A stretch of 64,000 nucleotides of DNA from Onthophagus taurus (Eukaryota > Arthropoda > Insecta > Coleoptera > Scarabaeidae), in the NCBI RefSeq assembly GCF_036711975.1, contig NC_091967.1, positions 29,551,501-29,615,500 of the forward strand, read 5' to 3'. Positions 3,920-20,602 of the stretch are shown here, in pieces; within the stretch, counting starts at the first letter, position 1, and every line of letters starts with the position of its first letter. A model generated the notes under the pieces. That model was not told the DNA's origin. It worked only from the letters and a program-made list of their open reading frames with translations, and searched no databases. The translations under genes were made by a program, and so were the position numbers.

Positions 3920-5110
3920 GTGGAGGTTTCGACCTCGTGGTTTACATTTCCTGAGGGCAGCCATCTTAATTTCCGTTTTCTACGTCCGGTTCCTTCCGAA
4001 GAAAGAGAGAGGGATAGGAAGCTGCGCAAAGGGTCTACGCAAGTAAAACATAACCAAACATAACCTTTTGAACGTCGGACGCGTCTTGGCGGTCTTGGCG
4101 CAATTCAGGATTAGTAACTATGAGAGAAAGATTTAATTCTTCGTGTTTTTGATTTAATGATTAATTAATTAATTAATACCTTTTTTTTATTAAGAGTCTT
4201 CAACTCAATATATATATATATATATATTTTTTTTTTGTTGTTATCACCGATTTAAAATTTATTAAGATAGATATTTTTCTTTTAATTTTGTTAACTTATC
4301 GCTTGGACGTTACGGGCTTGTTTACTTTTTTTGACACTTATTTTGGGTGTCCCACAATTATATTTACATCAGCTGATGATAATTTATTGTGTACTAATTT
4401 TACTTTCTTTCAGGATTTTATTATTTGTATTTTATTTTTGGTTTCTCGAGTCAAAAGCGATAAGGTTTTTGGAGATTAATTTCATATCCTTACTTTTCAT
4501 TATTAAAGAACATTATTGGTATAATACTAGATATATTATTAATATAATTATTTTGATTAACAAAGTTAATCAATTTTTGAACACATTTCAATATAGTTAT
4601 TTGAATCTATTATCTCAACATTACTTTTTTTTGTGTATGTTAGTACTTGTTCCTTTTCCTTTGACATTGGATTCGGACTTACTGGGTCAAAGGTTTGTAT
4701 TGATAGGTTTCGGTTTAAGTTCGTGGCGCCCTTATTTAGATCAGAACCCTCCCTTCTTCACTGAGTTACCGGAGCCCGATCCTATCAATTTGTGTCTTGT
4801 TTGGAATTTTTGGCGCTACAAGTTGACACTACGCTTTATGAATTTAAAATGAATTTTAATCTAACTTAAATTTATTACATTACTTGTTTAAAAAAAACGA
4901 ATAAGATCTTTATTAATAAACAAATAGCTACAAAAGCAATAATTTTTAATAATTTTTTTTACGCGGGTTCGTCCGAAATAAATCACGCGAAACGAGTTCG
5001 TCAAAGATAAACTAAAAACTGAACTGAATTTCATTCTAGCAATCGTCTTGTAGGCGTTTTAGATTAGGACCGGGCTTTGGCGACGCTAAGTCGTGAACAC
5101 AGATGCTGCT
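3920..5110. other. AT-rich stretch, no supported gene
   Basis: An open frame at 4331-4852 is long (173 codons) but dominated by I, L, F and Y, as expected from AT-rich DNA, and has no recognisable domain. Two TGGCGC boxes (about 4726 and 4811) resemble primer-binding sites of LTR elements, but I see no matching LTR edges. A decayed LTR element is possible and not demonstrated. Confidence 0.35.
4158..4229. repeat. (TTAA)n and (TA)n microsatellites
   Basis: A run of ATTAATTAATTAATTAA is followed about 30 bases later by a long TA run and a poly-T tract. This is simple sequence only. Confidence 0.8.
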
Positions 5111-9775: not shown

Positions 9776-11968
9776 TTGTGTATACATAATTTATTGCAGA
9801 TGCCATTATTTTACAAAAATGGTACGGAAAAGTTAGACTTACAAAATTTGAATCCCGTCAAACTATTCGATTTTATTGAAAACATACCTTCGGGCAGTGA
9901 AGATGAACTAGAAGTGAATAGTGACGACGATCGTGTACAAGTTGATCCCGATGCACAAAACTTATTGGATAAGTTTCTTGATGATCCAAACATCTGCGAA
10001 ATTATAAAGACTGAAGCAGACCCGAATGAAGATAACTCGATAACTCTAAGTCGGTATTAGATTGTTTAAAAACTGCAACACCTCCAAAGGTAGTTCGGAA
10101 AAAAATTCGGAGCAATTTACATTTCAATGACAGTACTATTATTTCGGATGATAAACTACATAAATTGTGACCAGTCATCGATTCAATATCAGCGAAATTT
10201 CTAACAATTCCTATGGACGAAATGCTATCAATTGATGAGTAAAGTTGTGCAACAAAGGCACGTCATCATATGAAACAATACTTACCATTGAAACCCCACA
10301 AATGAGGATACAAACTTTTTTTCTAAGTGGCGTGTCAGGAATTTGTTACAAGTTTGAAATTTATACCGACACAGAAAACTCTCTTCCTCCTGTGGTTCGT
10401 CGTAATCTCTGCTACTCACTTATATTTTCTCACTTCGACTATGCGGACGCGGTTTATCCCGATCTCTCGGCAACTCTTATGAGTAAATTGCAGCGGCTAC
10501 AAAATAATTGCATCCGGTTCATATTTGACCTAAATAATCATAATTGATCGCAATTACATTCAGATGTTAATCTGTCGGGCTTTTAGCTGCTCTCTCCCTC
10601 TTTTCGTGACTTTTCTTTATTTTTCTCTTTTTCTTGCTTAATCTTATTTGGTGATAAATGTTAATAATATCTAATTATCACTATGTTCGCGCGGCAAATA
10701 ACCGGGAAACAAAATTAGGTGTTGGTTCTTTAATTAAAACAAAATGATAATAAAGATAAATAATAAAACAAAAAAATTGCAACTGATTGAATTTAATATA
10801 AATAAAGTTAAAAATATAATTACCTTGATTTAATATAAGTGTGAGCGTGGGTGGACATGATAGTAGAACGTGGTTTTTCGAATGATTGACACGTGTGATA
10901 CAAAGTATGATTGAAAAGTAAGTGAGTGAGAGTATTTTAAACTTGAAAACTCCAGGTTGAGCCGGTGCACATAACTCATACACGGGGCGAAAATAAGAAA
11001 ATTAAATGCAGGACAAACACACTACTTACCATGTTCAGTAAATATTATTTTTGTTTGTTCTGTTGGGTCATTTGGCAGAGATCGCTTGTGCGATAAAATG
11101 ATCCATTTGCTGATACTGCTTATACTGTTTAAGTTTATCCATTGCTCGACTAACAATCGACAATGGGATTCTATGTATATATTTTTTGTTCTTATTATTT
11201 TTTTTATTGTTTTTTTCTTCTTGTATATTTTATGTAATTTTGTATTCTTATCTGTGGCAATAACTGGTATAAATAAATAAAAAACGAACCAAACAAGCTA
11301 CCACCAAATGAACCGGATTTGGGAGCGAGCAGCAATATTGTCTCGCGAAATACCACGCAACAAATTTCATAAATTATATTTTGATAACTATTACACCTCT
11401 ATTCCGGTAATAGCTAATTACTTAGCTCAACTTAGCATTCATTCTCTTGGAACCGTGCGACGTAATCGAAATCCCTGCTGCAAAGTTCCATCGGAAAAAG
11501 ATTGCAATAAGATGAAACGGGTGAATATGTGATTGATTACGAAGGAACATCTATCAGTAACATGTATTGGAAAGACAATAAAACTGTTACACTTCTGTCA
11601 TCATTTATTGACACAAAACCTGTAATGATGGTAGGAAGGTACAATCGAAAAAATAGAGATACCTTGCCCTGCTATTGTTACACAATACAATCGTCACATG
11701 GGAGGAGTGGACCTGCTAGACAGCATAATTGCGAGATACAAAATAAAGATGCGATCACGAAAATAGTACATGAGATTATTTTATCATTTAGTTGATATCA
11801 CGATTGTCAACGCATGGTTGCTTTATCGCAAATACACTCGGAACATGTGCAACCCCTAAACGAAGCCGACCAACTGAAATTGAACGAAGCATAAAGAATA
11901 TCAAGGATCTTGCTGGAGAAACCGCGAGATCGAAAAAATTAACCGAAGAAGAAGAAAACCGAACTAAA
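9776..11968 (+). pseudogene. piggyBac-family transposase, copy 1
   Basis: The N-terminus (after TTATTGCAG at about 9799) is acidic, with PSGSEDELEVNSDDD, typical of piggyBac proteins. A large part of the first DDE half is absent. The text resumes near 10200 with PMDEMLSIDE and KQYLPLKPHK, then YKFEIYTD. After the LINE insertion it continues with LPPNEPDLGASSNIV-type sequence in one frame and KLYFDNYYTS. It then gives DTKPVMMVGRYNR and, in another frame, MGGVDLLDSIIARYKIKMRS and HLVDITIVNAWLLYRK. These match the order of blocks in piggyBac-derived transposases. Stops and frameshifts are frequent and the cysteine-rich C-terminal domain is not seen. Confidence 0.8.
10380..11285 (+). mobile_element. 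5'-truncated jockey-like LINE inserted in piggyBac copy 1
   Basis: The insert opens with LPPVVRRNLCYSLIFSHFDY, then ADAVY and KLQRLQNNCIRFIF, the C-terminal end of a jockey-type RT ORF, stopping at about 10547. It is followed by AT-rich 3' sequence and a TAAATAAATAAAAAA tail at about 11268-11285. The flanks GAAAAC (left) and AAAAAC (right) suggest a short target duplication. By chance the piggyBac frame runs into the LINE frame, making a 100-codon chimeric open frame (10245-10547). Confidence 0.7.
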
Positions 11969-12272
11969 CCAAACCGAAAATTGAGGAAGGAGAAAATGGA
12001 TAAGGTAATATCGAATTTTATTATAAGGTTCACAACGACGGTACTGTTGTGTTTTGAAATAATAACTGATGGTGCACGTTTGGTGAGTGCAATAATTGCG
12101 GAGTTATCCCAAGAGTTAAAGGATATTCCGTGGAATAACGTAATGAAAGATTATGGTTATGTACTTTATAGCGTACGAAAATGGAGAAATAAACGAAAGA
12201 AAAATGGAAACTTCGAGAAGTTGATTAACGAGATTCGATACTGACGAACAAGTATCGAATGAATTTAAGGCG

Positions 12273-12893
12273 ATGGAATCGCGAGATATTTTGCCCTTTT
12301 CAGAATGTTTTGTTAACGAAATCCTGAATCGAGAATTTGAAAATAAAAATGTCATTTTAGAAGGAAATGATGATTTCAAAAATTCGGGAATTATGATTGC
12401 ACGTGGTTTTGTGAGATCAGATGATCGGCCACAAGCATTAGTGGTTAATTTATCCGATAAAATAGTACGGATAAATAAAAACACGAAGTTGGGGAATGCG
12501 ATAATCGGAGAACTACCGGAGCATTGTTCTCGAGAGTTCAAGGTCGCGAATATTGCAACGAAGTCGTCAGACGTAAACAAAAAGAATAATGATCCCGTAG
12601 AGCAGATTGACTTTAGTCATCTGGAATTTAACGATAAAAATAAGGTTAAAAAATTACTTAGAAAATATAACGATATTTTCGGCAAGGGAATCGGGAATCT
12701 TAGTAGTACGCATAAAATAAAACATAGAATTGTTACTGATGACGTACCACCGATAACGAAACGGCCTTATCGAGTACCTTATCATCAGAGGGAAATGCTA
12801 CAAGAAAAAATAGACGAAATGTTGGAAAAAGGAATAACGATGTCGATAACGATTATGATGTCATGGAGAGCCCATGGAGTGCACCTGTTGTAA
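12273..12893 (+). pseudogene. Gypsy pol, protease-RT linker and RT start
   Basis: This frame encodes a linker and then KKLLRKYNDIFGKGIG, KIKHRIVTDDVPPI, RPYRVPYHQRE and MLEKG, the standard approach to the Ty3/Gypsy RT fingers domain. At about 12840 the reading leaves the expected track: a short ATAACGAT-type duplication precedes the SPWSAPVV block, which is in the next frame. The protease motif expected upstream is not present here. Confidence 0.85.
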
Positions 12894-14218
12894 TAGTAAA
12901 TCGACAGATGGCTGATGGTTCAGTGAAACCAAGAATCTGTATTGATTATCGAGAATTAAATGCAATTACGAAACGAGATTATTATCCTTTACCAAATTTG
13001 CAGAAAACAGTTAATGTTTTGTCCGGAGCAAATTTACTTAACGTTTTCGATGTATCTTCGGCGTACCATCAGATTAAAGTAGATGAAAGAGATCAGGAGA
13101 AAACTGCTTTCCCTACACCGTACGGACATTATGAGAGTAGTAGAATGATGTTCGGATTGGTGAATGCGCCAGCTACATTTCAGAGATTTATGAATTATAC
13201 ATTATCAGGATTAATTGGGAAACATTGTTTGGCATATTTAGATGACGTAATTGTTTTTACTAATGGCAGCGTTGATGAACATTTGTGCCGATTGGAAAAG
13301 ATTTTTGAAACTTTTAGGGAAGCTAACATAAAATTAAAACCGGAGAAATCGCAAATATTGGTCGAAGAAGTTAAATATTTGGGACATATATTATCAAGGA
13401 AAGGAATCCAACCGGATCCAGATAAAATTAAGGTAATTAAAAATTATCCTGTCCCGAGAAATGTAAAAGAAATTAGAGCTTTCCTTGGACTGATGGGATG
13501 GTATCGGAAATTTATTGGTGATTTTTCCAAATTATCGGAGCCACTTACTCGATTGACAAAGAAGGATGTAGAATTCAAGATCGGAGAAAAGGAATTAAAA
13601 GCAATCGACGATTTAAAAAACGCAATTAATGATAAATGCGTATTGACGTTTCCAGATTTTTCTCAACCTTTTATATTGGCAACGGACGCGTCAGATAAAG
13701 GACTTGGAGCCATCTTAAGCCAAGTAAAAGGTGGATTTGAAACTCCAGTTGCTTTTGCTAGTAGAGGCTTAAAAAAGGCAGAATTAAACTATAGTACCAC
13801 CGAAAAGGAATGCTTAGCGGTAGTATTCGGAATCAAACAATTCAGATGCTATCTGTATGGTCGTCGTTTCACTGTGGTTACCGATCATCGACCATTACGG
13901 TGGCTACTAACCATAAAGGATCCGAGCTCAAGATTAGCGCGTTGGGCGTTATCCTTAGCAGAATATGATTTTGAAATCGTTCATCGACCTGGAAAGAAAC
14001 ATGGAAATGTGGATGCGTTGAGTAGAATTTATACGGTGAGTACCGTTAAGAAAAAATTTGAAATTCAGGAAATTTTGGGAGACTTGTTTACGGCACCACA
14101 TGAATATTCGCTAGCACACTGTGTCAGTCAAGATTTTCAAATGTCGCAGGGAATTGCGAAAACGTTTCGATCTAAATTTGGGCGACTTAACGAATTAAGG
14201 CAACTAATCCTTCTGTAG
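12863..14218 (+). pseudogene. Gypsy pol, reverse transcriptase + RNase H + start of macrodomain
   Basis: RT motifs in order are SPWSAPVVIVNR, RICIDYRELN, FDVSSAYHQIKV, FGLVNAPATFQRFMN and YLDDVIVF (catalytic DD). The connection YLGHILSRKGIQPDP is followed by RNase H with ATDASDKGLG, TEKECLAVVFGIKQFR and VTDHRPLRWLL, then DALSRIYTV. From about residue 400 the text changes to GDLFTAPHEYSLAHCVSQDF, then QGIAKTFRSKFG. That is the start of a TARG1/OARD1-type macrodomain rather than an integrase leader. The frame ends at TAG 14216, just after the macrodomain helix; the continuation is one frame away, so a single-base lesion or a frameshift site lies at about 14195-14205. Confidence 0.92.
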
Positions 14219-14490
14219 GTGACGTAGCGAGCATCGAAGTTGAAGGCCAAACTCTATATTATTTGGTCACTAAAAGTAATTATTACGTAAAATCCACTTA
14301 TCAGTCGTTAAATCAATGCTTGGAAAGATTGAAGGTATTGATGTTACAAAGAAACGAAAGATTTTTGGCTATACCAAAGATTGGGTGTGGCTTAGATAAA
14401 TTAGACTGGAAAACCGTAAAGGTCAACATCAAAACAATATTTGAAGATACAGATATTAAAATTGTGGTTTACGTATTGGAACAACCGTAC
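14062..14490 (+). other. TARG1/OARD1-like macrodomain embedded in Gypsy pol
   Basis: About 143 residues sit between RNase H and the integrase zinc finger. The N-terminal half (frame ending 14218) has GDLF and SLAHCVS. The C-terminal half (frame from before 14263) has YYLVTK, STYQSLNQCLERL, IPKIGCGLDKLDW and TDIKIVVYVL. This block order and length match human OARD1/TARG1, which removes ADP-ribose from glutamate/aspartate and deacylates O-acetyl-ADP-ribose. The TARG1 catalytic lysine (Lys84, in LITK there) corresponds to LVTK here (K at 14272-14274). Asp125 corresponds to the D of GCGLD (14395-14397). Both are present. The domain is split by a frameshift, so this copy is probably dead. The role in the element is unknown; countering host ADP-ribosylation is a speculation. 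Confidence 0.85.
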
Positions 14491-16212
14491 TCACAATTAA
14501 TTTCAACAGTAGCTAAAAATAAAGAATCGGAATTTTTTCCTGTTTGGGATAAAGAGTTGTTAGCGAAAGAACAACAGAGGGATGATTTTTGTAAGGAAAT
14601 TTTGAAAGTGTTAGAAAACCAAAATTCTAACAAAATTGAGAGTTTTAATTATTACAAGGACGACGAAGATGTTCTCTATAAAATTTGTAATAATCGTGAT
14701 CTATTAGTGGTACCAAAAACCTTTATTAAACGAGCTATGAGAGGCGCAGGGCATGGAGGCCAAGCAAAAACTTTGTCATTAATGAAAGACCGATTCTATT
14801 GGCCTAATATGAATCGAGATATCAAAAATTATTGTACTAATTGTGAATTATGTAATAGAAGAAAGAATACTCCCCATTTACAAAAAGGTCCTTTACAGAA
14901 ATTTCATCAGTTATCTCGACCATTTGAACGAACATCTATGGACATTGTAGGGCCGTTAGTGACAACAGATAACGAGAATCGATACATACTAACTTTTCAG
15001 GATCATTTTACTAAATACTTAGAAGTAATACCGCTGAAGGATCAAAAAGCAGCAACGGTGGCAAAGGCATTTGTGACAAAGATTGTATGTCGACATGAGG
15101 CTCCTAAACAACTTCTAACAGATCAAGGGACAAATTTTCTGTCTAGAGTGATGCAAGAATCATGTAAGCTATTAGGTATTGAGAAAATTCAAACAACACC
15201 GTATCATCCTGAATGTAATGGATTAATTGAGAGAAGTCATCGAGTGATAAAAGATATTTTATCGCATTACATCGAGAAAAGTCAGAGAGATTGGGACGAA
15301 TGGTTACCTTTTGTATCCTTGGCATATTGTTCATCGTATCATAGTAGTACTGGATACACCCCTTATTTTCTGTTGTACGGACGTGATATCGAATTGCCAA
15401 TTGATGAATTTATAAAACCAATACCGATAAAATACGACTATGATGAGAATTATGTTTCTGAATTTTTAGCGAGAATGCACAACGTGTTCAACGACGTCAG
15501 AGAACGTCTAAAAACGGTATCTGATAAACAGGCGAGTTATTTTAATCGTAAGAGTAAGAAAAGATTATTTGAATTAGGAGATTTAGTACTTCTTAAAGAT
15601 GTTAGTATCAAGCCTGGATTGTCACGAAAATTATCTAGAACATGGACAGGACCGTATCGAATCGTAGAGATACTAAATGAAGTAAATTACAAAATTAAAG
15701 TTCAAAACGGGTCGCAAACAACTGTTGTTCACGTAAATCGATTAAAACCGTTCAAAACCAATTGGAATAAAACTCCTTCAAATCATAACTACTCGGATTA
15801 TTTACGGAAAAATTATGTGAATAAAGGTGATAACGAAATTTTGCCAATTAAGGAAACTGATCCAATATATAAGCCTATGACCCTACCGATGCCAATCTTT
15901 AGAACAATTCCTGGGCCATGGAAAATGAGATCTCCAAGAGTACAAGAAAACAGACCATCCTTAACTCCTACTCGAAACGTGAAGGTCGTTCCAACGAGAT
16001 TGTTTAAATCTCCAGAGTTTGCCGAAGCACTAGAAGAAGATCTGAATAACGAAGATAACATTGAAACGACCGAGAGCAATGAGCTGGTGGCCGATACAAA
16101 ATCTGATAGTAATGTTCCGATTGATAATGATACTAGTTTACCGTTAGCTTTGCGAAGGGGTCGTAGAGATATCAAACCCCCGGAAAAACTAACTTATGGC
16201 GTCGATCCTTGA
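14263..16212 (+). CDS. Gypsy pol, macrodomain C-half + integrase
   Basis: This 650-codon uninterrupted frame begins inside the macrodomain; the given start is simply where the frame is usable, and translation would normally enter from upstream pol. The H2C2 zinc finger appears as GHGGQAKTLSLMKDRFYWP with CTNCELC. The catalytic core shows D in TSMDIVGPL, D in LLTDQGTNF and E in CNGLIERSHRV, so the DDE triad is complete. A GPY/F module follows (SRTWTGPYRIVEI) with VVHVNRLKPF. About 150 residues of low-complexity tail end at RRDIKPPEKLTYGVD. The protein would insert cDNA into the host genome. The frame itself is intact, though the upstream part of pol is not. Confidence 0.92.
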   Translation: MVTKSNYYVKSTYQSLNQCLERLKVLMLQRNERFLAIPKIGCGLDKLDWKTVKVNIKTIFEDTDIKIVVYVLEQPYSQLISTVAKNKESEFFPVWDKELLAKEQQRDDFCKEILKVLENQNSNKIESFNYYKDDEDVLYKICNNRDLLVVPKTFIKRAMRGAGHGGQAKTLSLMKDRFYWPNMNRDIKNYCTNCELCNRRKNTPHLQKGPLQKFHQLSRPFERTSMDIVGPLVTTDNENRYILTFQDHFTKYLEVIPLKDQKAATVAKAFVTKIVCRHEAPKQLLTDQGTNFLSRVMQESCKLLGIEKIQTTPYHPECNGLIERSHRVIKDILSHYIEKSQRDWDEWLPFVSLAYCSSYHSSTGYTPYFLLYGRDIELPIDEFIKPIPIKYDYDENYVSEFLARMHNVFNDVRERLKTVSDKQASYFNRKSKKRLFELGDLVLLKDVSIKPGLSRKLSRTWTGPYRIVEILNEVNYKIKVQNGSQTTVVHVNRLKPFKTNWNKTPSNHNYSDYLRKNYVNKGDNEILPIKETDPIYKPMTLPMPIFRTIPGPWKMRSPRVQENRPSLTPTRNVKVVPTRLFKSPEFAEALEEDLNNEDNIETTESNELVADTKSDSNVPIDNDTSLPLALRRGRRDIKPPEKLTYGVDP

Positions 16213-16756: not shown

Positions 16757-18413
16757 AAATGGATCGTGGTCTTCATGGTGGTGGGTGGTAACTGAGGTTG
16801 CAGAAATATAGCATACGATTGTAGTGCTCCGACGACCAATATTACAGGTTCCCTTAGATTTTCATGGCATGCTTGATAAAGAAGGTAAATGCAAGGGTGA
16901 AACCTTTATTGAAAACGGCGAAACCTGGACGGATGTGGTTGTACAGGGTTCCGTTACCATTAAAGTAAGCGATTACAACGCTGTATTGAGTTTGGAACAA
17001 AATATGGTCAAATTAAGTGGTGGAACAAGTTGCCCCTACCTGGATGGATATTGTATAGATACATTATTTGGGGAAGTGGCGTGGAATATACTCCCGACCG
17101 TTGAGTGTACGTCAAAGTATACTACTTTATACCATGGACCTGCAACACAGGTGACCATAAAAGATACCAACGATAAATACGTGGTCGTAGAACATCAAGA
17201 TCGTATTTTTGCTCTCAGCATTTTAAAAAGAAGTTACGCTTGTTACTCAGAAATATATTTAACTGAACACCCGAGATTGGTTCTGTACTTCGTCGAGAAC
17301 CAGCAATTGATACCAACATCTCATGTTATCAATCCGAGGGATGTCGATTTAACGGCTTATATCAATAGTAAATTTTTGTATGTCGAACATTCATACAAGA
17401 AGTCCTTAAACAATTTGTACCGAGACACCGTTCAAAGGCGCTGTTTGATGAAGAGAGAGATATTGCAGAACAGATTGCTAATGGCTCCTCTTGCGCCTGA
17501 TGCCGTAAGAACCCTATTGAATAATCATCCCGGATATGTTGGTCGAGTAATAGGGGAAGTATTATACGTGTTGCAATGTATTCCTAAAGTGGTACAAATT
17601 CGCCGGGTTATTAAATGTTATAACGAATTATCAGTGACGGATAGCTCAAACGAAACCTATTTTATGGCTCCGTTGACGCACATTCTATTTAAGATGGGCG
17701 AAGAAGTAGATTGTAACGTGGCGACTCTACCAATGTTTCAATTAGAAGACAAATGGGTATCTATGGGTCTACATCCAATCTTACAAAGTCCACCGGAGAA
17801 GCTAGAAGTAAAAGAAGAAGTGATGTTTAAATTCACGCCCTTATATACCTTTGGGGCCGCTGGGTTGTACACACAAGAAGATTTGGTTCAAGCGCTAGAT
17901 GCGATCCGATTTGGAATCGAGCGAAATGCGATTCAAAGCATTTTAATTAGACGGTTACAAGGAAAAGATACTCATGGGAGTAATATAGACGTGGTAAATC
18001 TATTCAACCTCAGTGAGCTACGAAAATTTGCGAAAAGTACCCTATCATATCTATGGGGTTGGTTTACGGAAGTGGGTATGGCTATCAGTGATTTCATTGG
18101 AATTATAGTTCTATTCCGTTTCTTAAAAGGGTTGGCTAGCGTAATACTAAATGGTTACGCTCTATATCGAACAATGGGTTGTGGACTGATTATTCTGGCC
18201 AGTCTTTGGAATAACTTAACCATGTGGTTATTAAACAAACATAGACCACAGGCGAACAACCCTGATCCAGAAGTACCTTTAATACCTATTCCTGAGGACG
18301 CGACTCCCACTATACCGAAACAACGACCACAAACGATAGCTCCAAAGAAAACCTTTTATCCATCTGTAACCGAAATACCAACATGGATGAGACCATCAAC
18401 ATCTACCGAGTAG
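16757..18413 (+). pseudogene. env: Envelope-like glycoprotein of the Gypsy element (chuvirus-like)
   Basis: The long frame 16824-18413 (529 codons) begins at an ATG that is probably not the original start. Upstream, in another frame, lie a hydrophobic segment IVVFMVVGG (signal-peptide-like), an in-frame TGA at 16793 and AYDCSAPTTNIT. The N-terminus is therefore broken by one stop and one frameshift near 16850. The body has many cysteines, the block GRVIGEVLYVLQC, then CYNELSV, FMAPLTHILFKMG and LPMFQLEDKWVSMGLHP. A long hydrophobic stretch around residues 415-475 (FIGIIVLFRFLKGLASVIL) suggests a membrane anchor, followed by a proline-rich cytoplasmic tail. The pattern resembles chuvirus-type glycoproteins found in some insect LTR elements. 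I judge this from memory of the family, so the class is tentative while env position and topology are clear. Confidence 0.65.
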
Positions 18414-18707: not shown

Positions 18708-19833
18708 TGTAGCGATCCGCAGATCTGTTCAAATTTTGTTAATTAATTATTGATATTTTTATTCATTCTAGAATAGAGGGGATCGTTGCTCGACTCATCC
18801 TTCCCTTCCTTTTCTTTTGTCTAATTGTTATAGTTGTAATTGTTTGATTGGTTAAACCACGAGTTGACCAATAAGATTATTCTTCTGAGTTAAGAGCGTT
18901 CAGGGGGAAAACGTTTTCCTTTGGTTTTCCTTCCCTCTCTTTTGTTTAATTGCTGATGTTGCAATTTCTAATTGGTTGAGCCATGTGTTGACCAATAAGA
19001 ACTTTCCTAGAGGAAAGAGCTTCCAGAGGGTAAAGGTTTAAGTATTGAGGAGGAGCGCCTTTTGAAGAAGTTCAGTTGAGTGAAGTTCAGTTCGGTTTGG
19101 AATTTAACATTAATTCCTTCGGCGAAGCACCCTATTCGGTTTCGGTTAAGAGTCTTAGTGTAAAGTCCGAGTAAGACTCCGGTAATTCTTAAGTTTGATG
19201 TAAGTTATTTAATTAATAATTATTAATTAACTTTTATTCGATCGGATTAAAATTAAAGTGTTACACTTTTTGACGAGTCACTCCTCTCAATATGATCGCT
19301 TTAATCCTTGGTAAGTCGTCAATGTTTTATTTCACATATTAACTTGTAAAGGTAGTAACTAATTGCTTTAGCTTTTTCTGATTTGGTGTGAACATACATA
19401 ATATTCGATATTCTTTTGAATTATTTTTTTTATTAAATTGATCATTGTAAGTTTTGTTGAACTTAGATTTTGGCTTAATGTTTTATTTGGTTATAAAGAT
19501 TTTCAAGTAAAGTCAGGAAAATTACTAGATTAAAATTTCTTTTGTTGTTAATCAATATAAAGTTTTCGAGTTATTTTTGTAGCTAAACTTTGTTTGATTC
19601 AATTTATTTTAACTTTCATTCTGTTTATTAATTTTAGTTTGTATTTTATTTTTTTTTTGCTGTTGTTTTTGTTTGATTTTAATTCATTAAATTTAGTATT
19701 TAAATTTGACTTGATTTCTTTTATTAAATTTCATTTAACTTTGCTCCCTAAATCCAAGCCGGCGTGACAAGGTTCTGCTTGTCGCATACGCCTTTAGCAC
19801 GCCCACACAACAAAGTAAGAGCCGCTCCTTACA
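18708..19833 (+). repeat. 3' LTR of the macrodomain Gypsy
   Basis: The LTR begins TGTAGCGATCCGC and ends GCCGCTCCTTACA, about 1126 bp. Its second half, from CTTTCCTAGAGGAAAGAG, through AAGAGTCTCAGTG-type sequence, to the same GCCGCTC-TTACA end, is closely repeated at 22735-23633. Two internal related blocks (TTTCCTTCCCT...CTAATTGG.T..ACCA) indicate a tandem duplication within the LTR. Confidence 0.8.
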
Positions 19834-19837
19834 GTAT

Positions 19838-20602
19838 TGATTGACTATTATTCGAAATGGATCGAGTTAGTTAAATTAAAGCAAAAGAATTCAGAAGAAT
19901 TAATCACTGTATTGAAAACTATATATGCAATACACGGAGTTCCACAAATAATGATAGCCGACAATATGCCTTTCAATTCTAAAACATTTAAAGATTTTAG
20001 TATTAAATGGAATTTTATAATTAAAACTTCCAGACCATATTATCCTAAAAGTAATGGACTAGCAGAAAAGGCAGTTGGTATATGTAAAACAATGGAAGGA
20101 GATTTACACACCCGTTTTAGGTACAGAATTGTCACCTGCTGAACTTTTATTTAGTAGAAGAATAAAAACTAAATTACCTATAAGAAATGAACTATTAAAA
20201 CCAAAAATTATAATGAATTTTACAAAAACTTTAAACGAAAAAGCACAAATAAATAAAAGCTACTATGACTGAAATACTCAACCTAACAAAACAAACTTCA
20301 AAAAGGGAGATAATATAGTATACAGATATAAAAATAAGTGGGAACCAGCAAAGATTATCAAATCGAATAATACTCCTAGATCAATATTTATAAAAAATGA
20401 AAACAATAAAATAAAAAGAAGAAACACGATAGATATAAGTCCTTCGGAAAATATTCCAACATTTAGAACACGTGACAATGACATAGAAATTAAAAAAGAA
20501 CAGGTACGTTTAGAATTAAACGATAAAGAGATTAATGTTGAAAATCAATATAGAACAAGGTATGGTAGAATAGTAAAACCACCTCAACGTTTACAGGTTT
20601 AA
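19838..20602 (+). pseudogene. Second Gypsy, integrase C-terminal fragment
   Basis: The text reads MIDYYSKWIELVKLK, VPQIMIADNMPFNSKTF and YYPKSNGLAEKAVGICK, the second D and the E region of a retroviral integrase core. It continues past a frameshift near 20100 with LSPAELLFSRRIKTKLPI, a further stop at 20270, FKKGDNIVYRYKNKWEPAKI and finally TRYGRIVKPPQRLQV and a stop at 20600. This is a different Gypsy lineage from the 12-19.8 kb element. Confidence 0.85.

Follow-up and report, generated by a model that had tools for sequence, protein, structure and literature searches.

A TARG1-type macrodomain between RNase H and integrase of a Ty3/Gypsy pol in Onthophagus taurus, and related domains in other retroelements

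Introduction

What would an enzyme domain that acts on ADP-ribose be doing inside the polymerase polyprotein of a retroelement? The question is raised by a locus of the beetle Onthophagus taurus, within a stretch of 64,000 nucleotides (contig NC_091967.1, positions 29,551,501 to 29,615,500) that is referred to here as the window. Hosts use ADP-ribosylation in DNA repair, and it has been linked to the silencing of mobile elements; a retroelement with an eraser of its own would be a direct means of finding out whether integration or silencing is under ADP-ribose control. A first-pass annotation had placed a macrodomain of the TARG1/OARD1 type at positions 14062..14490 of the window, between the RNase H and the integrase of a frameshifted Ty3/Gypsy pol. 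In PMC4245714, TARG1 is described as only occasional among invertebrates, and TARG1-like homologues are noted in some viruses, few of which have all the essential residues. Within the literature searched, mostly non-subscription sources and the first entries of long listings, nothing described a Gypsy pol with a macrodomain.

The pol gene of the window

The macrodomain is embedded in the following pol features, all on the forward strand.

12225..12893, + strand: pol piece upstream of the reverse transcriptase (RT), the end of the protease region or a linker; open frame, relatives of which precede the RT at related loci
12923..13393, + strand: reverse transcriptase, RVT_1 (Pfam PF00078, E 2.5e-34)
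13655..13966, + strand: RNase H of the RT, RT_RNaseH (PF17917, E 1.2e-40)
14731..14868, + strand: integrase zinc-binding domain, H2C2 (PF17921, E 4.6e-17)
14917..15210, + strand: integrase core, rve (PF00665, E 5.3e-13)
15649..15750, + strand: integrase C-terminal domain, Integrase_p58_C (PF22938, E 2.5e-12)

The order RVT_1, RT_RNaseH, H2C2, rve and p58_C is that of a Ty3/Gypsy pol. Pfam matched neither the piece at 12225..12893 nor any protease in this copy, and the ORFs scanned upstream of pol contained no gag domain. Direct repeats of at least 60 nt are absent between window positions 4000 and 22000, and comparison of the window with itself by BLAST gave no more than two pairs, one inverted and 51 nt long (5810/7159), the other adjacent, 116 nt long and 75% identical (18801-19039), neither of which is LTR-like; the absence of LTRs is to be expected, as the copy is truncated. 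With no recognisable gag upstream, no recognisable LTRs and a frameshift in the macrodomain, the window copy is a fossil. Its RNase H and integrase are nevertheless separated by 857 nt, compared with 876 nt in the four of six other copies of its family (family A) in which the distance could be measured.

A macrodomain split over two reading frames

The list of ORFs and a direct reading show that the macrodomain spans 14057-14490 and that a frameshift divides it. The first half lies in an ORF shared with the RT and RNase H (12743-14218), where it reads ...FEIQEILGDLFTAPHEYSLAHCVSQDF...KFGRLNELRQ as far as about 14203, and the second in an ORF shared with the integrase (14191-16212), where it reads ...NPSVGDVASIEVEGQTLYYLVTK...IPKIGCGLDKLDW...TDIKIVVYVL.

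14057..14203, + strand: first half of the macrodomain, RT frame (direct reading; matches other family A copies, L009-L014)
14078-14089, + strand: GDLF motif, first half
14108-14128, + strand: SLAHCVS motif, first half
14216..14218, + strand: stop codon that closes the first frame in this copy (direct reading)
14200..14490, + strand: second half of the macrodomain, integrase frame (matches TARG1 by sequence and by Foldseek)
14272-14274, + strand: Lys equivalent to TARG1 Lys84, second half
14395-14397, + strand: Asp equivalent to TARG1 Asp125, second half

The numbering of the catalytic residues of TARG1 as Lys84 and Asp125 follows the first-pass annotation. A plain domain scan would miss this macrodomain, since Pfam gave no match to the first half alone and only a match below the gathering cut-off for the second (Macro, E 0.0027). 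Against the PDB, the second half matched chains of human TARG1 at E 1.1e-19, in an alignment of 88 residues that pairs the Lys and the Asp with their catalytic counterparts. An AlphaFold2 model of this half (mean pLDDT 79) was likewise closest to TARG1 when compared with the PDB by Foldseek (E 1.4e-7, 43% identity), with macrodomains of DarG next, and a profile built from 12 canonical rows aligned to TARG1 from profile position 3 to 141 and chain position 8 to 146 (E 3.6e-54), again the best match. The human protein (TARG1, OARD1 or C6orf130; PDB 4j5r and 4j5s) thus has full-length homology to the retroelement domain and shares with it the GDLF and AHC motifs and the equivalents of Lys84 and Asp125, but it is a free cellular protein, whereas the retroelement domain is part of a polyprotein. 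Chance is not the source of this signal, and the segment is confirmed as a TARG1/OARD1-type macrodomain between the RNase H and the integrase of a truncated Ty3/Gypsy pol.

In these respects the first-pass annotation has stood up well: the type of the domain, its place with RT_RNaseH upstream and Integrase_H2C2 downstream, both catalytic codons and the frameshift are as it had them. Its limits need a small correction, as both halves lie where it put them but the domain starts slightly earlier, at about 14057. In the search of the two frames against macrodomain families that it had proposed, Pfam gave no macrodomain above threshold, and the PDB gave a clear TARG1 match.

The likeness to bacterial DarG, a DNA ADP-ribosyl glycohydrolase, raises the question of the substrate. 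With E 0.01 as the limit, DarG was the sole NCBIfam match (E 2.6e-12 for the window half, far under the DarG cut-off score), its macrodomains come after TARG1 in Foldseek, and TARG1-type domains are found fused to ligase III-like and flap-endonuclease-like proteins; as these are DNA-end enzymes, the fusions suggest that domains of the TARG1 class are suited to work at DNA ends. TARG1 itself removes ADP-ribose from DNA or RNA. One could therefore imagine a domain that strips ADP-ribose from nucleic acid in the manner of DarG, either from DNA (the ends of the cDNA) or from RNA, and so shields the genome of the element. The argument is one of resemblance, though, and the best match remains TARG1, for which ADP-ribose linked to glutamate and aspartate has been described as the substrate (PMC4245714); a nucleic-acid substrate is accordingly regarded as improbable.

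When the model was compared with a library of viral structures, the top matches were iridescent virus 6 032R and Kadipiro virus VP8, and flavi-, negev- and virga-like viruses associated with thrips were also among them. Since the best viral structure matches are of this kind, TARG1-type domains seem to have been acquired by several insect viruses. The iridescent virus and Kadipiro virus proteins, those of virga-like viruses and alphavirus nsP3 are likewise cases of viral macrodomain capture, but these viruses are not retroelements, and the macrodomains of alphaviruses are distant from that of the window (17-19% identity). A scan of viral contigs gave two loci. TARG1-like macrodomains also occur in 84 phage records, at no more than 44% identity to the retroelement domain of family C.

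Copies and families in the genome

The genome (290.8 Mb) gave 68 matches when searched with the window half and 74 when searched with the 146-aa TARG1-type domain of P0003, a ligase III-like protein. Of the latter, 45 span residues 7-142; for 36 of the 45 the surrounding open frame measures 1,241-1,692 aa and the match is free of stops. Pol sequence adjoins the macrodomain at 22 of 23 loci; the remaining one, L065, looks like a decayed copy of the host TARG1 gene. Nine further loci comprise five with pol pieces on one or both sides, the host TARG1 gene itself (L066), and three at which no pol piece was found (L068, L071 and L074, the last examined over only 601 nt). L065 (C3) lies elsewhere in the genome than L066 (C1), shares its intron place and seems to be a decayed duplicate of it.

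The macrodomain is situated between RNase H and integrase in family A, in A2 (L015) and in families B, C, E, F, G and H; in C2 (L061) pol was found on the integrase side but no RNase H on the other. In family D (L054 and L056-L059, with frames of up to 1,613 aa) it precedes the RT, and RNase H and integrase are just 390 nt apart in each of four copies measured. The distance from RNase H to integrase was surveyed more widely in 150 of 1,530 and 150 of 2,146 candidates, of which 52 and 40 rows were used; 39 of the 52 yielded a value. Among these 39, the values cluster at about 390 nt (family D and one other copy), 460 nt (one family), 635-726 nt (several families, including F and H) and 857-915 nt (A, B and C), with a decayed copy of family E at 1,102 nt and an outlier at 1,460 nt.

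Family C has been mobile recently, its copies being near-identical: the median pairwise identity of 17 copies over 3,408 nt is 99.4%, and 15 of the 17 are stop-free.

Occurrence in other organisms

When proteins were searched and scored solely on the macrodomain of family C, 35 were returned, and these were placed by domain mapping. Ten have the macrodomain at the junction of RNase H and integrase (P0020-P0022, P0030-P0032, P0034-P0036 and P0043), including P0031 from the sawfly Athalia rosae; no integrase could be recognised within P0020 and P0031, and in P0034 the side with RNase H is missing. In six (P0037-P0040, P0042 and P0044) the macrodomain follows the integrase; P0037 is from the fish Triplophysa rosa, and P0038, although labelled as a Cetobacterium MAG, is probably host contamination. 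Nine have a protease and then the macrodomain in ORFs of 772-840 aa (P0023-P0029, P0033 and P0041; the Pfam scan made here covered P0026). One, P0014, has three stretches of macrodomain, the weakest of them last, behind a Retrotrans_gag domain. The remaining nine are not clear retroelement polyproteins: four thrips proteins (one an environmental row), P0016, two from Planococcus citri, one of which (P0046) has an RT-type domain, and P0047 and P0048.

Macro domain ORFs in endogenous retroviruses of teleosts have been credited to Basta et al. 2009 (PMC4977317), and the six proteins with the macrodomain after the integrase are taken to be this group. They resemble the element of the window in that a retrovirus-like element has captured a macrodomain, but theirs lies after the integrase and that of the window before it. 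Five of the six have a PF00075 RNase_H domain according to a precomputed Pfam column, confirmed for P0040 by a Pfam run, and the four available RTs of this type form a group far from the Gypsy RTs in the tree of this analysis. At least three positions in pol have thus been used by macrodomains: between RNase H and integrase, between protease and RT, and after the integrase in the fish-type retroviruses.

These distributions bear on the least interesting explanation, namely that the segment is a neutral passenger or an artefact, such as a host exon or fragment inserted once at the window locus. The window copy is indeed frameshifted and truncated, as such a passenger might be. Dozens of copies in several families have open frames, however, the domain occupies the same place in elements of other organisms, omega between families is low (see below), and the element copies lack an intron that the host gene has: L066 contains a GT-AG intron of about 50 nt inside the domain, and the aligned open copies of the elements read through without it. 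A passenger is hardly credible on these grounds, and an artefact or a single insertion is ruled out by the genome copies, the loci flanked by pol and the elements of other organisms. The first-pass annotation had asked whether the segment might be a separate insertion absent from related elements; it is present in the elements of this and of other genomes.

Domains of the same class were also found outside retroelements. The flap-endonuclease-like protein P0016 (XPG_N and XPG_I) has a TARG1-type macrodomain at its C-terminus, and in the ligase III-like proteins P0002-P0006 the macrodomain precedes a BRCT domain, P0003 having ligase domains and P0002 and P0004-P0006 the LIG3 BRCT part. Here the domain is fused to a DNA-joining enzyme.

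Origin of the retroelement macrodomains

A macrodomain tree of 45 rows, arbitrarily rooted, falls into several groups. Clade I consists of A, A2, C and C2 (95/84), and clade II of E, D, D2, P0021, P0022, P0030, P0036 and P0043 (95/93), to which B, P0031 and P0045 can be added (95/89). Clade III consists of P0020, P0032, P0034 and P0035 and is joined by the host gene L066 (96/80). The fish type and the protease-linked type are clades of their own (100/99 each), and the four thrips proteins and the ligase III-linked domains are separate, the three of the latter that were placed in the tree forming their own clade (100/100). A single origin of the 28 retroelement macrodomains is neither rejected nor established (AU test, p 0.072). 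A clade of the elements with the RNase H-integrase site, minus family D, was rejected at p 0.024, for a group defined after the tree had been viewed.

The RT of family D groups with those of A, B and C (87/79, moderate support), whereas its macrodomain belongs to clade II, and it therefore seems probable that family D took its macrodomain from another element; a donor within clade II would fit the p 0.024 result. There is no support for a recent capture from the host's TARG1 gene, since L066 sits with clade III in the tree rather than with families A-E. Nor is a capture from the ligase III of the host supported: unlike P0002-P0006, that ligase (L043) has no macrodomain and runs straight to its BRCT domain.

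Conservation of the active site and selection

The canonical alignment contains 28 retroelement rows, made up of eight families of this genome, the ten junction proteins, the six fish-type proteins and four of the nine protease-type proteins. The catalytic Lys is kept in all 28 and the Asp in 27, being replaced by Asn in the reference copy of family B, and the Phe of GDLF and the His of AHC are present in all 28. This conservation is partly self-selected, as the rows were drawn from similarity searches.

Codon models gave macrodomain omega values between families of 0.092 (A-A2), 0.081 (C-C2) and 0.095 (D-D2), with likelihood ratios against omega = 1 of 55, 86 and 54, at a saturated dS of 2.6-3.5. 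These estimates support purifying selection on the macrodomain between families and so bear out the past selection that the first-pass annotation had read from the catalytic residues. When the dN/dS comparison that it had proposed was made within young families, omega came to 0.39-0.65 and in none of four cases differed significantly from 1 on the lower side (pooled copies of A, two pairs from B and one from F), as fits copies that drift after insertion. In six A copies the macrodomain has six non-synonymous and three synonymous variable codons, and the omega of the family A RNase H, 0.26 from pooled pairs that are not independent, was lower than that of the macrodomain. The integrase is also the more constrained in the one pair compared between families (C-C2, 0.034 versus 0.081).

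Degenerate macrodomains

Families F, G and H still have a macrodomain at the junction, but GDLF, AHC and most of the GCGLD loop are gone; to judge from this loss of motifs, such macrodomains are apparently catalytically dead. Degenerate macrodomains occur at the same site in six Gypsy families in all, F, G and H having been chosen by similarity and those of L075, L078 and L079 by position alone (three of five such families, with distances of 717, 696 and 687 nt), one of them marginal. A degenerate profile of five sequences (F twice, G, H and L075) matched the canonical profile with a probability of 99.5% (E 9.7e-23), and its best match in the PDB was human TARG1 (E 3.5e-16), with the first unrelated protein at E 0.006. 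Scored singly against the canonical-only profile, F, G and H reached 66.0, 68.2 and 57.7 bits and L075, L078 and L079 reached 10.1, 22.0 and 22.9 bits. With 2,000 shuffles for every sequence, none attained the score of its original; L075 was marginal (best shuffle 9.1 bits), and control pieces from family D, its zinc-binding domain and its 16-residue linker, scored below 0.

Among seven degenerate rows, Lys is kept in three, one of them L079, and the Asp place holds Asp in four and Asn in one, the pieces of L078 and L079 stopping short of it; the His of AHC is found in none, five of the rows being unaligned there. Omega was 0.34 for H-G (likelihood ratio 5.4) and 0.09 for H-F (17.8, saturated), values between families that leave room for some remaining constraint. 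That such domains occur in six Gypsy families suggests that catalysis is dispensable there.

In one protein both states are found together. P0030 has a macrodomain of the active type at 696-831 and a degenerate one at 919-1006 (43.5 bits), both before the integrase. A comparable arrangement is the tether of the Retroviridae, a dead RNase H that is kept in pol beside a new active copy (PMC12440569), although the domain retained in Gypsy is a degenerate macrodomain and not an RNase H. Second macrodomains in P0031 and P0032, at which weak hits had hinted, were not supported: their 8.6 and 8.2 bits lie inside the shuffle range of other spacers. Degenerate domains in sister families and an element with both kinds go beyond the first-pass annotation, as do the placement between protease and RT and the published precedent in fish retroviruses.

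It is tempting to propose that, across a broad range of Ty3/Gypsy elements, what separates RNase H from integrase is an ancient macrodomain that may be active, dead but retained, or renewed by an active copy in front; the proposal is a tentative one, with the odds slightly against it. If it were true, a second dead enzyme domain would join the retroviral tether as a standard part of pol, LTR retroelements would have long been shaped by ADP-ribose biology, and the degenerate copies would illustrate how a domain that was once an enzyme becomes a permanent structural component of a polymerase polyprotein.

Possible function of the domain

The favoured reading, to which a probability of about 0.57 is attached, is that the element carried a TARG1-class ADP-ribosyl hydrolase beside its integrase that would have removed ADP-ribose marks of the host, a function suggested by its sequence features. 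In this scenario a Ty3/Gypsy lineage would have taken in a TARG1-class domain as intronless sequence, into pol between RNase H and integrase. The macrodomain would be made within Gag-Pol, be packaged with RT and integrase and presumably remain on the complex of cDNA and integrase, where it could hydrolyse ADP-ribose placed by host PARPs or other ADP-ribosyltransferases on proteins of the element, on chromatin or on cDNA ends. Removal of the ADP-ribose may then relieve silencing or a block to integration.

Connections between ADP-ribosylation and the silencing of mobile elements have been described. Significant misregulation in parp-1 mutants of Drosophila affected eight mobile elements, of which five went up, and ten further elements were up-regulated, nine from the gypsy superfamily and none under the false-discovery limit; according to the authors the effect may be indirect (PMC7712786). 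In the silencing of L1, SIRT6 ADP-ribosylates KAP1 (PMC4695847), and the HUSH silencing complex employs a pseudo-PARP (PMC7532188). The fusions of TARG1-type domains to ligase III-like and flap-endonuclease-like proteins, which act on DNA ends, also agree with the hydrolase reading.

Because several sister families retain the domain without its active-site motifs, it probably also serves beside the integrase as a structural spacer, or as a scaffold that binds a ligand. Could such a role be the whole of its function? The macrodomain might act as a reader that guides the integrase complex to damaged or active chromatin by binding (poly-)ADP-ribose there, or it might merely space RNase H from integrase. 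The degenerate but kept domains at the same site in six families, the degenerate second copy in P0030 and the position directly before the zinc-binding domain of the integrase would all agree with this. Yet the retention of Lys in 28 and Asp in 27 of 28 rows of the canonical class exceeds what a binder would need, and a pure spacer is at odds with family D and the fish-type elements, which carry the domain away from the RNase H-integrase junction. A reader or scaffold as the sole explanation thus appears unlikely, and the hydrolase reading is preferred.

Flanks of the window element and an envelope-like ORF

Three further features flank the pol of the window.

11281-11529: transposase fragment, DDE_Tnp_1_7, just upstream of pol (domain scan)
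16812..18413, + strand: envelope-like ORF, fusion glycoprotein of the negative-strand-RNA-virus type (PF24664 Monjiviricetes_fusion, E 8.7e-135)
19819-20139: separate integrase-core fragment, downstream of pol (domain scan)

DDE_Tnp_1_7 is taken to denote a piggyBac-type transposase. The envelope-like ORF begins 0.6 kb past the Gypsy pol on the same strand and is a candidate part of the same element. A baculovirus-type envelope is the hallmark of Errantivirus (PMC12440569), and the ORF matches Monjiviricetes_fusion instead. PMC10084718 reports that no clear evidence of glycoprotein capture by Gypsy was found. The pairing of a glycoprotein of the negative-strand-virus type with the pol of an LTR element has parallels in Anakin, a BEL/Pao element with a chuvirus glycoprotein (PMC10084718), and in the Jingchuvirales glycoproteins of arthropods (PMC7642597); the glycoprotein ORF of the window differs from these in that it adjoins a Gypsy pol.
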